Shown: positions 33-32,126 of the stretch, in pieces
Numbering within the stretch: position 1 is the stretch's first letter
Layout of the letters: every line of letters starts with the position of its first letter
From: an uncultured Erysipelotrichaceae bacterium
Lineage (GTDB): Bacteria; Bacillota_I; Bacilli_A; RF39; UBA660
DNA length: 48,407 nucleotides
NCBI GenBank assembly: GCA_948442015.1
Contig: CAOJRP010000011.1
Coordinates: 1-48,407 of the forward strand
Direction of reading: 5' to 3'
Notes under the pieces: model-generated
The model's input: only the letters and a program-made list of their open reading frames with translations
The model's database searches: none
Told to the model about the DNA's origin: nothing
Position numbers and translations under genes: made by a program

Positions 33-383
33 CTAAAAACTTGACATAAATCCACTTGTATTTTGAAACGTTGTAGTTGATAAACTCTCTAGATTTACTA
101 TATAACTTGCACTTCCACTACATGTATTTGTAATTGTAAATGTATATGGTGTATTTTGCATTCCTTCTTCCGTCTTTAATGGATATGCGCTACTTATATT
201 GATTGCTTCATTTCCCTCTAGTTCTACTCCAAAGCATCCTGAAGATATAATATTTGAGTCTTCCTGTACTTTCGTTGCTTGCCAAAAAGCATAACTTATA
301 CCTACTATTAATAGTAGGAGTAAGATACTTATACTACTTGTTATTATTACCTTTCTTTTTTTGTTTTCTTCTTTTCTTTCCAT
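33..383 (-). pseudogene. Camelysin/TasA-like surface protein, truncated
   Basis: The frame encodes 116 residues. A charged N-terminus is followed by one hydrophobic segment (about residues 12-31) ending in ISYAFW, then SSGCFGVEL and FTITNTCS. The same series of motifs occurs in the neighbour at 3601-4278 (SYAYW, SSGCFNIEL, FTVTNTCS), so the two are paralogues of the camelysin/TasA (CalY) type: secreted or membrane-tethered matrix-fibre proteins. The start at 383 has a GGAGGT Shine-Dalgarno. Similarity to the paralogue stops near NLESLSTTTFQN, and the frame ends about nine codons later, where the paralogue continues for over 100 residues. The gene is therefore truncated, probably by something whose end is at the left edge of the window. 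Its promoter (420-466) is shared with the paralogue. Confidence 0.7.
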
Positions 384-419: not shown

Positions 420-466
420 ATTATACCCCCCCGATCTTTCGGTCAAGTTAAGAAAGAATAGTTTAC
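420..466 (-). promoter_or_regulatory. Camelysin-gene promoter 1 with poly-G spacer
   Basis: On the minus strand TTGACC (441-446) and TATAAT (420-425) are separated by 15 nt that include seven consecutive G (426-432). Bases 442-466, covering most of the -35 and the region upstream, are identical to 4335-4359 in front of the paralogous gene. A 15-nt spacer is 2 nt short of the sigma-A optimum, so gain of G residues by slippage would be expected to strengthen it. The switching idea is inference; the sequence identity and poly-G tract are directly visible. Confidence 0.7.
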
Positions 467-585: not shown

Positions 586-933
586 GTGGCTAGTAAAGGT
601 CAAAAATTTAAACAATGGACAGCAGAAGAAAAATATAAAATAATAAAACCTGTTTTGGATATGGAAAAGAGCACACATGATATTCCCCGTGAAATGGGAT
701 TAAATAATGGGATGATTTATAATTGGATAAAAGCGTATCGAAATAATGGGATGAATGGATTAAAATCTAAAAAGAAACCAGGTAATCCATTATCCAAATA
801 TTCTAATAAAAAGAATCTTACAAGAGAAGAACAACTTGAATATGAAAATATGAAACTAAGAATTGAGAATGAAATGTTAAAAAAAGGATTCCTAACGAAA
901 GGAGATGGTACATATGTAAAATTCATGAAGTAA
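586..933 (+). CDS. IS3-family transposase OrfA (helix-turn-helix)
   Basis: A 115-residue DNA-binding subunit of the IS3 transposase that recognises the element ends. It has the typical N-terminal helix-turn-helix (FKQWTAEEKYKIIKPVL, then MGLNNGMIYNWIKAY at about residues 38-52) and a C-terminal leucine-zipper-like stretch (LEYENMKLRIENEMLKK). The start is GTG, with GGAG 8 nt upstream. Near the C-terminus seven consecutive A (879-885) form the slippery sequence A-AAA-AAA. A -1 shift there enters the orfB frame and gives a fused OrfAB transposase of about 411 residues, the usual active form in this family. Confidence 0.88.
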   Translation: MASKGQKFKQWTAEEKYKIIKPVLDMEKSTHDIPREMGLNNGMIYNWIKAYRNNGMNGLKSKKKPGNPLSKYSNKKNLTREEQLEYENMKLRIENEMLKKGFLTKGDGTYVKFMK

Positions 934-1820
934 CGCAAACTAAATATGAGATAATTGAACTTTTAAGTAAAGAATATAATACAAAATCGTTATGCTTAAT
1001 ATTAAAAGTATCAAGATCAGGATATTATAAGTGGCTTAAAAATAAAGATATATTAAATCAATACGAAATAAATAGAAAAAACTTAGGAGAATTAATTCAA
1101 GATATACATAATCGTAAACCAAGTTATGGATACCATAGAATAAACAAGATAATAAAAGATGAAACTGGATGGTATGTGTCATCAAATCTAGTTCATAAAG
1201 TGTGTAAAAGCTTAAATATAAAATCAAAGGCTAAACATTATAAATATAAACGACCAGGAGAAGAATCAATTAAATATTCTAATATTATTAATGGTAATTG
1301 GAATACTACAAGACCTTTTGAGAAAATAGTATCAGATACAACGACTTTCTACTTTAAGAAAAAGAAATATGATTGGACATTTTATTTAGATGTGTTTAAC
1401 AATGAAATTGTTGGTTATGATGTAAGAGATTCTATGAATGGAAATGGAGTTTTAAACCATAGAGAAGCATTATATAATATGTTAAATAACAAAATAAAAA
1501 GAGGGTACGAAAACCTTGAAACAATCGTTCATACAGATCAAGGAGCCGTTTATTCCTCAGTGTCATTTAACAATATATTTAATTCTTATAAAGTAACCAG
1601 ATCTATGTCTAGAGCTGGTACACCAACAGATAATCCAGTTATCGAATCAAAAAATGGCTGGATTAAAAAAGAAATGTATATTGATTTTGACATAAATAAT
1701 TATAACACAGTTCAAGAATTTATTGATGATATTGTTTGGGATAATAACAATTATCAACCAAGTTTTGCATTACGATATAAAAACCCAGTTGAGTATAGAA
1801 CTCAACTAGGCTTTAAATAA
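873..1820 (+). CDS. IS3-family transposase OrfB (DDE integrase core), made by -1 frameshift
   Basis: The frame is open from 873, just after a TGA at 870, but has no convincing start codon near its beginning. Translation most likely enters by -1 frameshifting at the A7 run (879-885) in orfA. The early part carries the IS3 HTH_21-like region (SRSGYYKWLKN, PSYGYHRINKII). The rve integrase core has all three catalytic acids: D in VSDTTTFY, D in VHTDQGAVYSS, and E in NPVIESKNGWIKKE. The C-terminus (NNYQPSFALRYKNPVEYR) matches the family's end. An ATG at 1176 would give only the C-terminal 214 residues and lose part of the N-terminal region. Confidence 0.85.
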   Translation, partial: NVKKRIPNERRWYICKIHEVTQTKYEIIELLSKEYNTKSLCLILKVSRSGYYKWLKNKDILNQYEINRKNLGELIQDIHNRKPSYGYHRINKIIKDETGWYVSSNLVHKVCKSLNIKSKAKHYKYKRPGEESIKYSNIINGNWNTTRPFEKIVSDTTTFYFKKKKYDWTFYLDVFNNEIVGYDVRDSMNGNGVLNHREALYNMLNNKIKRGYENLETIVHTDQGAVYSSVSFNNIFNSYKVTRSMSRAGTPTDNPVIESKNGWIKKEMYIDFDINNYNTVQEFIDDIVWDNNNYQPSFALRYKNPVEYRTQLGFK

Positions 1821-2269: not shown

Positions 2270-3610
2270 TTACTTGACTATAAATGGTTCGTTAGATGTC
2301 CCTATTCCACCACTTATTTCCGTATCGACTTTTAAGTTTATTACTGGTCTTACGCCAAATTCGTTGCTAACTTTATATGTGTTACCAACATAACCCATCC
2401 TAAATACCTCGTCTCCTGAAATAGATCCAGACAAAGACGGTGTCATAGTCCAGTAATAGGAACTAGACGCAGTATAAGACAAAGTTTGATATTTTCCCCA
2501 AGAATGCCCTGACAAAGACAACTCATCAATCGTCATTAAACCAATCGGATAAATCAAGGCTTTATTCCCTTTTCCACTAGAAGATGTAGTAAATAAATCA
2601 TTGCTATTTTGACAATTTAATGCTGGCGATCTTGTAACTTTATATCTATTATCACCATCATAATGTGTTAATTTGCTAGTAGTGTATCCATCTCCAACAT
2701 TTGAAGGAGACAAACTCCTATCATTACAGAAACCAGCATCGGCAATATATTTTGATAACCTTTTATCAACAATATTTTGTCTATACCAACTATCTAAATA
2801 TTTCTTGATAGTTGAATCTACTTCATTAGCATGAGTTTCTGCATAACTTGAGTTTAATGTGTTTCCATACATGTATCCAACATACGCTGGGTTTCCATTA
2901 TTTGTATTAAAAGATATTCTGTTAGTAGAAGAATATCCTAAAGAACTATCTGTTAGTCTCGCAAATAATTCTTCACCTTGGGCATCTTTTTTCGATCCTG
3001 AATATAATAACCTTATACTTCCATCACCATTGATTCTTATTATCCTCCAGTAATGACCTCCAAATAAAACATAATTATTATTGACACTTCCCCTATAATA
3101 ATAACTTGTTCCATATTCATCGTTCATTTGATAAATTCCTTTATCTGATTTATCACTTTCAACTTCTCTTGGAGTATAAGTATATCCCATTATGTAATAT
3201 TCTATTGTTTTATATGTTTCGCCTTTTGCTGAAGTATATGTTCCTTCGCTTTTAGTTACACTTTTTATTTTTCGTAACGCAGTATCATATTCGCCAGATG
3301 CGACAGCCAAATTGTTACCATTCTCGAATATATCGGTCCACGTTGTATAATAATCATTATTTTCATAATCAAGTGTTGTAGGATCAACTCGTTGTACTCC
3401 TGTCAATGTATACATTCCTGTTTCACTATTAAAAGTATATCCCATTCCAATAAGTGGTAACACATTTGTAGACGTCAAACTTTCAGTTCCCACAATTCCA
3501 GAACCAACTAAACTTGGATCTAGTGTCTTTGCTATATATATACTTGTACTTGCATTATGTTTTTCTTCCCAATCTATTATTGGAGCTGTCTTACTAAAGT
3601 CTACTGCTTG
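2270..3610 (-). pseudogene. C-terminal part of a frameshifted camelysin-like surface protein
   Basis: The frame is open from a TAA at 3611-3613 down to 2270. The only possible start in its first 40 codons is a GTG at 3493 with no Shine-Dalgarno, while coding-like sequence continues upstream of it (DFSKTAPIIDWEEKH, STSIYIAKTLDPSLVG). The N-terminal gene at 3601-4278 overlaps it in another frame and ends in IASNKQ. One protein of about 670 residues was therefore probably split by a one-base frameshift near 3605-3615. The C-terminal part has a region around YYYRGSVNNNYVLFGGHYWR and ends with YWTMTPS, GVRPVINLKV and NEPFIVK. This resembles a domain common in surface proteins of gut Firmicutes, whose function I cannot name. 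It has two isolated Cys residues (GFCND, LNCQN). Confidence 0.65.
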
Positions 3611-4278
3611 TTACTTGCTATTTTTGACTTTGCTAATTCAATATCTGTTGTTTGATATTCATTTGCTAGTATTGCGTCTTTTAATAACGTTATTCCATTA
3701 TCCACTGGATTATATTTACTTACACTAGCATCCACTACTACTTTTGATAACATTACTTTATTCATAGCGTCTTTATCACTAGCTGTTATATTTCCATCCA
3801 TCCATATTCTTACTGTATAATCTTCACTATCGCCACTTCCTAAACTTCCACTTGTTAGTTTTCTAGATTCTACTGAATTATTTAATACTGTATTTGTTGT
3901 TTCTAAGTCAGCTAGATTTTTTATCTCTTCATTATTAACCATTACTTTGATATATTTATTAGCAAGTGTTGTTCCTTCTAACATTTCTAAATTAATATTG
4001 TAACTTGCAAATAAACTACAAGTATTAGTTACTGTAAATGAATATGGTACTAGTTTTCTTCCTTCTTCATCTGTAATTGGATAGGCATTTTCTAATTTTA
4101 TATCATTTTTTTCATTTGATAATTCAATATTAAAACAGCCTGAACTAACTTTATTTAACCCTTCTTGCTTTTTTGTTATTATCCAATACGCATAACTCAT
4201 TCCTATAACTAAAGACATTACTAATAATATCCCTAAAACCCCTACAATTCTTTTCTTTTTCTTACCTACATCATTCAT
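3601..4278 (-). pseudogene. Camelysin/TasA-like N-terminal part of a frameshifted surface protein
   Basis: 225 residues: a basic N-terminus, a hydrophobic helix (about residues 10-30) ending SYAYW, then the camelysin-like motifs SSGCFNIEL, NAYPITDEEGRK and FTVTNTCS. TasA/CalY proteins form extracellular matrix fibres. The start is ATG 4278 with GAGGT 8 nt upstream; a GTG at 4293 is part of the leader. The frame stops at 3601, but the next frame continues as the C-terminal region at 2270-3610, so the two were probably one gene. Promoter 4313-4359 shares its sequence with that of the paralogue at 33-383. Either a true frameshift or an assembly indel would explain the split. Confidence 0.7.
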
Positions 4279-4312
4279 AAAATATAACCTCACACTTCCT
4301 ACTGTTAGTAAT

Positions 4313-4359
4313 ATTTTACCCCCCCGACTTTCCAGTCAAGTTAAGAAAGAATAGTTTAC
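4313..4359 (-). promoter_or_regulatory. Camelysin-gene promoter 2 with poly-G spacer
   Basis: TTGACT (4334-4339) and TAAAAT (4313-4318) are spaced 15 nt apart on the minus strand, and the spacer includes seven consecutive G (4319-4325). Bases 4335-4359 are identical to 442-466 of the other camelysin promoter, while the flanks differ. Conservation extends some 20 nt upstream of the -35, which suggests a shared activator or regulator site. The leader is about 28 nt. Confidence 0.7.
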
Positions 4360-30556: not shown

Positions 30557-31330
30557 ATGTCTAATTATATTTTAGGTTTTATAATTGGTATTACTTCTTT
30601 AATTCCTGGTATTAGTGCTGGAACGATTATTTATTTAACAAGTGATTGTGCTAATACTTGGGATATTATTAAAGATTTTAAACATAATATTTTAAATATT
30701 ATCAAAATATTATTAGGAATTATTTTAGGAGTTTTAATATTTAGCAAGATAATTGAATATCTGTTTATTTATTTTCCCTATGAAACTATGTATCTTTTTA
30801 TAGGTTTTCTTCTTTTTAACTTTAAAAATAGTTTTATAAAAACAAAAAACTTGAATATTTTTTTTCTAATATTTGGGGCTTTAATTATTTATTTTCTTTC
30901 CATGTTAAGTTTTGATAATGAAATAGTTTATACTACTTTTCCTTCTCTTTCTTTAATTTTTTTAATTACTTTCTCTTTAAGTGGCTTTATTGATGGCTTT
31001 TTAACAATTACTCCAGGTATCTCAGGTTCAATGATGATGATGCTTTTAGGTCCTTACTATTTATATAAATCTTATTTAGCCAATTTTACTTTTTCTAAAA
31101 TAATTGTTATTCCACTATTATGTTATTTTACTTTCGATATACTAGGCTTTTATTTTGGAGCAAAATTCTCTTCTTATATGTTGAAAAACTTTGAAAAGAA
31201 CTTCCAAAGTTTTATCTTAGGAATGATGTTAGCTAGTATTATTATTTTAATCCCTAATTATTTTAGTTTGTCTTGTTTGATTGCTTTAATACTAGGTATT
31301 TTAATTACGAGAAAAGTAGAAACTATTTAG
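30557..31330 (+). CDS. DUF368 membrane protein, undecaprenyl-phosphate translocase family
   Basis: 257 residues, about eight transmembrane helices. The family's twin motifs are visible as related halves: SLIPGISAGTIIYLT near the N-terminus and LTITPGISGSMMMMLLGPYY in the middle. DUF368 (PopT) proteins return undecaprenyl phosphate, the carrier lipid for wall polymers, across the membrane. I chose ATG 30557 with AGGTG 6 nt upstream; the GTG at 30548 lies in that box. Its stop overlaps that of the convergent gene at 31327, with no terminator between them. Confidence 0.88.
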   Translation: MSNYILGFIIGITSLIPGISAGTIIYLTSDCANTWDIIKDFKHNILNIIKILLGIILGVLIFSKIIEYLFIYFPYETMYLFIGFLLFNFKNSFIKTKNLNIFFLIFGALIIYFLSMLSFDNEIVYTTFPSLSLIFLITFSLSGFIDGFLTITPGISGSMMMMLLGPYYLYKSYLANFTFSKIIVIPLLCYFTFDILGFYFGAKFSSYMLKNFEKNFQSFILGMMLASIIILIPNYFSLSCLIALILGILITRKVETI

Positions 31331-31815
31331 CAACCCAAACAAGAAACTCGAAGCGGATTATCTCTTGAGTTATTACCACCTTCAACCAATATTTTAGAAG
31401 AAAAATCGACAATAATTTTTACACGTCCTCCAACTTCTTTAGCAACATTATTTATTAATAGGTCTTCTTCTGTATAATAGTAAAGGTTGCCATCAAACCT
31501 TTTAATTTGTAAGTTTCTAACATCTTTCCATGTTCGGGACGCAATTAACCCGTGAAAAATATCCTCCATATCCCAATTCAAACTTCTAAGTAAATACAAA
31601 TCATCAGTATAATAATCATCTGTAGGACAAACTGTTGCAGTGTTATAGGCAGTACAGGTAAGAATTTGACCATTTCTAGCTCCAACATAACCAAAAGCGC
31701 GTCCGTTTTCTAAACTATAATAATTCGATATAGCAGAAACTGCACCTTGCAACACTCTAATTATAAAGACACGAGCGATTGCTCGGAGCCTTTTGTTAGG
31801 TCCAATATTTACCAT
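31327..31815 (-). CDS. Hypothetical protein, start uncertain
   Basis: I do not recognise this protein. The convincing part is the C-terminal 120 residues: FGYVGARNGQILTCTAYNTA, CPTDDYYTDDLYLLRSLNWD, LIASRTWKDVRNLQIKRF and VGGRVKIIVDFSSKILVEGG, ending SCLGC. The frame is open up to a GTG at 31998, but the first 60 residues (e.g. CLFSYFLFKGWLIINYFRKY) look like translated non-coding DNA. ATG 31815 (MVNIGPNKRL) is a possible start without a clear Shine-Dalgarno. It may be the 3' part of a decayed gene. A hairpin (CGAGC/GCTCG around 31774-31787) lies near this start. Confidence 0.4.
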   Translation of the reverse strand: MVNIGPNKRLRAIARVFIIRVLQGAVSAISNYYSLENGRAFGYVGARNGQILTCTAYNTATVCPTDDYYTDDLYLLRSLNWDMEDIFHGLIASRTWKDVRNLQIKRFDGNLYYYTEEDLLINNVAKEVGGRVKIIVDFSSKILVEGGNNSRDNPLRVSCLGC

Positions 31816-32126
31816 ATTATAATAAACAATAATATTTTTATGATTACTAACAAACTTCTGTTCATTTTCTTCATAAAAATACTTCCTAAAGTAATTGATA
31901 ATCAACCAACCCTTAAAAAGGAAATAAGAAAAAAGGCAAACTCGACATTCTACTCTCGTCTTAAGTGATAACACATGAAAAAGAACTTGTAAAATCACGA
32001 TTTTAGATTATTGCTAAGCAAAAATTTAATTATTGTTTTAATATTTTGAAGATAATCCAAAAATTGATAAATTCAAAAAATTTTTAATTTAATGTCAAAA
32101 TGTGAAAAAAAATAACCTATTACAGA

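Follow-up and report, generated by a model that had tools for sequence, protein, structure and literature searches.

In a 48,407-nucleotide stretch of DNA from an uncultured member of the Bacilli (hereafter the window), two runs of seven G's lie on the minus strand between the -35 and -10 boxes of predicted promoters. We consider it quite likely that each run gives a predicted sigma-A-type promoter a spacer of adjustable length, and that slippage of the run would switch the predicted surface-protein gene downstream.

Poly-G elements in the window and its genome

Direct reading of the minus strand bore out what a sequence-only reading had described for element 1, namely TTGACC, 15 nt including G7 and then TATAAT, and the spacer of element 2 is likewise 15 nt (Table 1). 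That reading had also claimed the same arrangement at 4313-4359, which holds for the layout, the spacer length and an exact 25-nt block common to both elements, although each box differs by one base. Its arithmetic that a 17-nt spacer requires G9 is correct. The distance from element 1 to the ATG at 383 is 36 nt, and GGAGG precedes this ATG. Two runs of at least seven G's occur in the 48-kb window, each between the boxes of one of the elements; shuffled versions contained 0.28 such runs on average and reached two in 6 of 100 shuffles. By number alone, the runs of the window are therefore only mildly unusual, whereas their position and the genome-wide set stand out.

Table 1 Predicted features of the two poly-G elements and the genes behind them (window coordinates)
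Feature	Position	Strand	Remarks
Gene behind element 1	33..383	-	116 aa; hydrophobic N-terminus, then GISYAFW; short, adjoins contig edge
Element 1, -10 box TATAAT	425-420	-	Predicted; consensus match
Element 1, G7 run	432-426	-	Predicted length-variable part of spacer
Element 1, constant spacer part GAAAGATC	440-433	-	Read from sequence
Element 1, -35 box TTGACC	446-441	-	Predicted; consensus match
407-aa ORF with YWRIIRINGDGSIRL	2270..3493	-	Beyond interruption of the element 2 gene
Gene behind element 2	3601..4278	-	ATG at 4278 (listed ORF from GTG 4293); hydrophobic N-terminus, GMSYAYW; frame stops at 3601
Element 2, -10 box TAAAAT	4318-4313	-	Predicted; weaker
Element 2, G7 run	4325-4319	-	Predicted length-variable part of spacer
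Element 2, constant spacer part GGAAAGTC	4333-4326	-	Read from sequence
Element 2, -35 box TTGACT	4339-4334	-	Predicted
Exact 25-nt block common to elements 1 and 2	442-466 and 4335-4359	-	Overlaps -35 box

The -35 box of element 1 and the adjoining constant spacer part form an imperfect dyad (GACC-GAAA-GATC), which reads GACC-GAAA-GGTC in most other copies and GACT-GGAA-AGTC in element 2, where pairing is retained through a double change. A dyad or hairpin was rejected as the key feature, since it is kept in most copies of the genome and compensated in element 2 but broken in element 1. As regards inverted repeats that would flank an invertible promoter segment, the pair most closely enclosing element 1 (352-384/745-777), among the 25 listed of 57 repeat pairs of at least 18 nt, is AT-rich and 73% complementary. 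Directly upstream of element 1 is a two-frame transposase (586-1820, plus strand), which we take from its appearance to be of the IS3 type.

A pattern search of the 1.497-Mb assembly (TTGAC-N9-G7, up to two mismatches) returned 16 places, 11 of them exact, against 3 for the backwards pattern. Of the 11 elements, two are those of the window. Contig C3 carries a tandem group of four, and C4, C18, C20, C23 and C24 carry a single element each, that of C24 being truncated by the contig end. They hold 11 of the genome's 14 runs of at least seven G's, and all three runs of at least eight directly precede TATAAT within the element. The ten copies with a readable -10 box have G8 in three cases and G7 in seven, and their spacers accordingly measure 16 or 15 nt. 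A readable downstream gene is present for 10 of the 11 elements, and all ten precede genes for predicted surface proteins. Genes of the kind labelled camelysin-like make up a minority of the targets of this set.

Three further G7 runs lie outside the elements (G000:C3:38795, C5:34205 and C28:13120, G000 being the window's genome) and are possibly frame-shifting tracts: two have the same surroundings and closely precede frames that are nearly identical, and one lies within a methyltransferase-like frame. Near the element on C20 there is an integrase-like frame (L017, 6002-6298). The one same-genus genome searched (G001) contains a single decayed element (L020), with G4 and a 12-nt spacer, preceding a SYAFW-type gene whose frame is apparently interrupted. 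P0001, P0007, P0015 and P0023, which the tandem elements are predicted to drive, are listed in assemblies whose longest contigs measure 97,386 or 97,384 bases; this two-base difference could be one of run length.

Occurrence, spacing and run length across genomes

Scanning 291 genomes of the family for TTGAC-N7-13-G6-N0-4-TATAAT yielded 131 motifs in 29 genomes, and two motifs with the pattern reversed. Two or more motifs, up to a maximum of 28, are carried by 22 of the 29 genomes; seven carry one, and part of these single motifs may be chance. The same pattern with C6 gave none among the 29 genomes, which had been selected for poly-G. These genomes contain 463 runs of at least eight G's with a preceding base, and G8 abuts TATAAT at 119 places (reversed control 0), a few of which start a contig and hence fall outside the 463; most of their long G runs therefore lie elsewhere. 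In a class-wide sample, 14 of 247 genomes carried the motif (reversed control 0), 3 of 31 within the family and 11 of 216 outside it. A scan of named genomes returned at least 119 stretches. About 67 of the 80 listed titles belong to Bacillota groups, in many cases with a title that points to the gut, and three to Saccharibacteria, with single rows for, among others, Spirochaetaceae, Streptobacillus, Helicobacter, Rickettsiales, Planctomycetota and Chloroflexi; eight of the 80 have stretches of 200 bases that are identical to family loci. One scan of a viral collection gave no match to the motif of the window's own genome.

As a reference for spacing we used ordinary promoters, defined as TTGACA...TATAAT without G6, from three genomes (G252, G147 and G000), a set that includes chance matches (reversed control, 7 or 8 per genome). 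Of these 132 promoters, 55 have a 17-nt spacer, 35 an 18-nt and 14 a 16-nt spacer, so that 104 fall at 16-18 nt. Among the 116 listed poly-G promoters of the family, by contrast, 17 nt is found in 8, compared with 20 at 15-16 nt, 22 at 18 nt and 62 at 19 nt or more; the four 12-nt spacers all come from one genome. The dip at 17 nt was seen again in the taxonomically mixed named set, which comprises 111 motifs among the matches listed, after removal of 14 motifs overlapping the family set, and has no ordinary-spacing reference from its own taxa: 17 nt occurs in 6, between 20 at 16 nt and 24 at 18 nt. In the window's genome, 10 of 10 readable poly-G promoters have 15-16 nt, as against 6 of 41 ordinary ones. 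Fisher values for the spacing comparisons (about 9e-11, 1e-11 and 6e-7) are too small, because the paralogous copies are not independent.

With all ten readable elements of this genome at 15-16 nt, most of them are expected to act as weak or silent promoters that a gain of one or two G's would turn on. Most motifs of the relatives lie at 18-20 nt, and there the loss of G's would switch the gene on, with the qualification that 18-nt poly-G promoters may be on already, since 18 nt ranks second among the spacings of ordinary promoters.

The run itself measures 6 to 13 G in the 116 listed motifs (29 genomes), with a mode of 10. Where one genome has copies with identical flanks, the runs are of unequal length in 10 of 16 such groups, the difference being a single base in every case, and six groups are uniform, for example six copies at G9 (G134) and four at G10 (G086). 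These differences between near-identical copies, together with the G7 and G8 of the window's genome and the spacings off 17 nt, support the earlier proposal of a phase-variable promoter as a candidate. A fixed G7, which the sequence-only reading had named as counter-evidence, fails between the paralogues of this genome. For orthologous loci between species of one genus, the upstream flanks proved too diverged or paralogous for a same-locus comparison. Contig edges at runs were considered as a sign of population heterogeneity and dropped, since repeated cassettes also break assemblies. A mutator background was considered but is not evident, as MutL was found both in the window's genome and in 11 of 12 tested; slippage would accordingly happen with mismatch repair working.

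The spacing and the run lengths also bear on an unlikely alternative, in which the promoter is constitutive or regulated and the run is an unchanging component of it, such as a regulator site or a source of the -14 G of an extended -10 element, and the length differences of the run are neutral noise. Such a part would account for the occurrence of G, and never C, on the coding strand in the 29 genomes, for the six uniform groups and for the position of the run, which abuts TATAAT in 93 of the 116 listed motifs. It would also suit the base before the run: of 183 distinct prefixes, 104 have C there (18% by composition; 37 of 95 for other G6+ runs). With regard to the dyad rejected above, these prefixes contain GTC near the run 20 times against 2.1 in shuffles, but also CTC 14 against 2.6 and TTC 23 against 5.0; since all three are enriched, a general preference for C/T explains much of the GTC enrichment. 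A fixed promoter, on the other hand, is expected at 17-18 nt, but two sets show a deficit at 17 nt and higher counts to either side, and a range of 6 to 13 G is unexpected for a regulator site. Moreover, the remainder of the spacer is unconserved between genomes, yet the long run recurs. A length-adjustable run may itself also supply the -14 G of an extended -10 element.

Genes downstream of the elements

The 407-aa ORF in the window was probably once the continuation of the gene behind element 2. The gene at 33-383 has a SipW/camelysin-like appearance. No match to camelysin or TasA models was obtained for 33-383, 3601-4293 or 2270-3493 (Pfam and NCBIfam, E up to 0.01), and the sole profile matches of these three ORFs were DUF6377 and SusR_regulator for 33-383, far under the cut-offs. 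The label "camelysin-like", which had rested on the look of the signal peptide, is therefore not upheld by Pfam or NCBIfam; furthermore, 8 of the 10 elements with a readable gene are placed to drive another protein family.

These eight elements precede paralogues that combine a near-constant signal and stalk region with a hypervariable C-terminal domain, amino-acid identity being 92% in residues 1-60 and 34% in residues 181-308. By eye, the signal regions have no lipobox cysteine. A sequence search found no solved relative of the paralogues. Modelled residues 80-290 appear to resemble C-type-lectin folds, with structure matches at 14-16% identity to the N-terminal domain of the Thomasclavelia ramosa IgA peptidase (9qa6) and the C-terminal domain of Legionella Lcl (8q4e). 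The C-terminal domain is thus predicted from the model to be C-type-lectin-like, and the paralogues would then form a repertoire of binding proteins. A viral structure library gave no paralogue match at E <= 0.001, the best being a DUF6273 protein at 0.015. Elsewhere in the window, an ORF at 31327-31998 (minus strand) contains GLIASRTW...GGRVKIIVDF, which faintly recalls the variable domain of the paralogues; there is no G7 run at that spot.

A diversity-generating retroelement was tried as a source of the hypervariability and rejected. The sole RVT_1 match in the genome (L258 on contig C10, 82-1326, minus strand) is closest to the PADLOC retron type VI models (E 2.6e-49), and blastn of 2.3 kb around this reverse transcriptase against the paralogue loci, in search of a template repeat, gave only short matches; the assembly is 89.5% complete, and such an element could lie elsewhere.

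The paralogues are conserved at their starts, with the first 165 coding bases averaging 96-97% identity, compared with 59% in the 20 nt upstream of the -35 box, and four copies stand in tandem. Both features are in keeping with the view that a cassette of promoter plus signal peptide has been duplicated, that the G run is mainly a by-product and that the source of diversity is recombination between cassettes and not slippage. We judge this very improbable, because the poly-G promoters of other genomes have unrelated spacers and drive unrelated genes, which means that the run recurs without the cassette.

Across the family, a hydrophobic N-terminus begins 87 of the 102 readable downstream ORFs, compared with 12 of the 40 ORFs of at least 150 aa in the window; 15 further family motifs have no readable ORF, mostly because the contig or stretch ends. 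Some of the 15 downstream ORFs without such an N-terminus encode ABC transporters, a glycosyltransferase or soluble proteins, and others apparently have a wrong start. In the named set (matches listed), 84 of 110 downstream ORFs have a hydrophobic N-terminus and 15 are unreadable; at least 13 loci are common to the two target sets. Such labels are our reading of the sequences; on the same basis, some targets are pilin-like (GFTLIELLAV), some are of the SYAxW type, and others also seem to be secreted. Several downstream proteins (L192, L187 and others; G147, G252) contain VYPVGSIYIS or IYPVGSIYIS...GGTWE stretches, which are reminiscent of phage tail-collar domains.

That the poly-G is a sequencing or assembly artefact, for instance of dark cycles in two-colour chemistry, is hardly credible: a number of runs do sit at contig edges, but such edges are also expected from repeated cassettes, most runs have flanking sequence on both sides and occupy the same position between the boxes in many independent assemblies, including those of named isolates, and the reversed and poly-C controls are near zero.

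The proposed switch and known systems

In the proposed mechanism, DNA polymerase slippage in the G run would move the distance between the -35 and -10 boxes toward or away from 17 nt, and this change would randomly raise or lower the expression of the predicted surface-protein gene that follows. With 11 elements, each having its own gene where readable, independent slippage would give a cell-specific combination of surface proteins. Slipped-strand switching of transcription, as reported for porA and vlp, agrees with the off-optimum spacing, with run lengths that differ by one base and with targets of the surface type. It is therefore likely, as judged from the sequences, that a known mechanism operates here in a new and large setting, as a multi-gene phase-variation system. 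The matches listed from the open-access literature included no poly-G promoter switch in uncultured Bacilli, and the earlier claim of novelty for this type of organism is plausible.

More tentatively, poly-G switches in gut Bacillota and scattered members of other phyla may constitute a large and so far unrecorded class, with as many as 28 in one genome, that rest one to three bases off 17 nt, each cell expressing a small random subset; in the present lineage, the hypervariable lectin-like repertoire would then make up a combinatorial, clonally varied commensal coat. If poly-G slippage switches these genes, a clonal population could wear many different coats. Invertible promoters are the best-known means of stochastic gene switching in gut bacteria, and this would be a second switch, simple and countable, so far concealed by short-read assemblies. 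The avoidance of 17 nt predicts that dominant alleles are weak and minority alleles on, and through the lectin-like repertoire a measurable run of bases would be connected with colonisation by the commensal, its exposure to phages and the antibodies of the host.

Two known systems share the principle. porA of Neisseria meningitidis is reported to have a poly-G tract between the -35 and -10 boxes of a surface-protein gene, with 11G in one strain and 9G and 10G variants under selection (PMC3639595). Its features are found here as a homopolymer between predicted boxes and a tract length that differs between similar copies. porA is a single gene of a Gram-negative bacterium, whereas the present system is a multi-copy set in uncultured Bacilli, predicted from sequence. 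In the vlp system of Mycoplasma hyorhinis, the tract adjoins the -10 box and the products are lipoproteins. Its surface-protein genes are reported to form a family in which every member has a homopolymer in its promoter region and is independently switched on and off in transcription (PMC10502178). The window's genome resembles it in having several predicted surface-protein genes with a tract of their own (the eight paralogues and the two window genes). Unlike the poly-A tracts and lipoproteins of vlp, the elements of this genome have poly-G and no lipobox cysteine seen by eye, so that the vlp combination of poly-A tract and lipoprotein signal does not occur among them, and the predicted domain is lectin-like.

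Other systems are more distant. Stochastic promoter switching in intestinal bacteria also occurs at invertible promoters (Jiang et al. 2019, as cited in PMC7241687), but there a recombinase inverts a flanked segment, whereas here a run of bases differs between copies. In Candidatus Mycoplasma girerdii, a member of the Mollicutes, repeat-length variation affecting surface proteins was also recovered from a metagenome; the repeats are reported to be mostly dinucleotides, judged by their effect on the reading frame and measured from reads (PMC5476646), in contrast to the promoter spacers inferred here from assemblies. Homopolymeric tracts of prokaryotes, including one in the Gram-positive Listeria, are similarly reported as a source of variable expression; those described there lie within coding genes (PMC2831843), while the tracts described here lie in promoter spacers.
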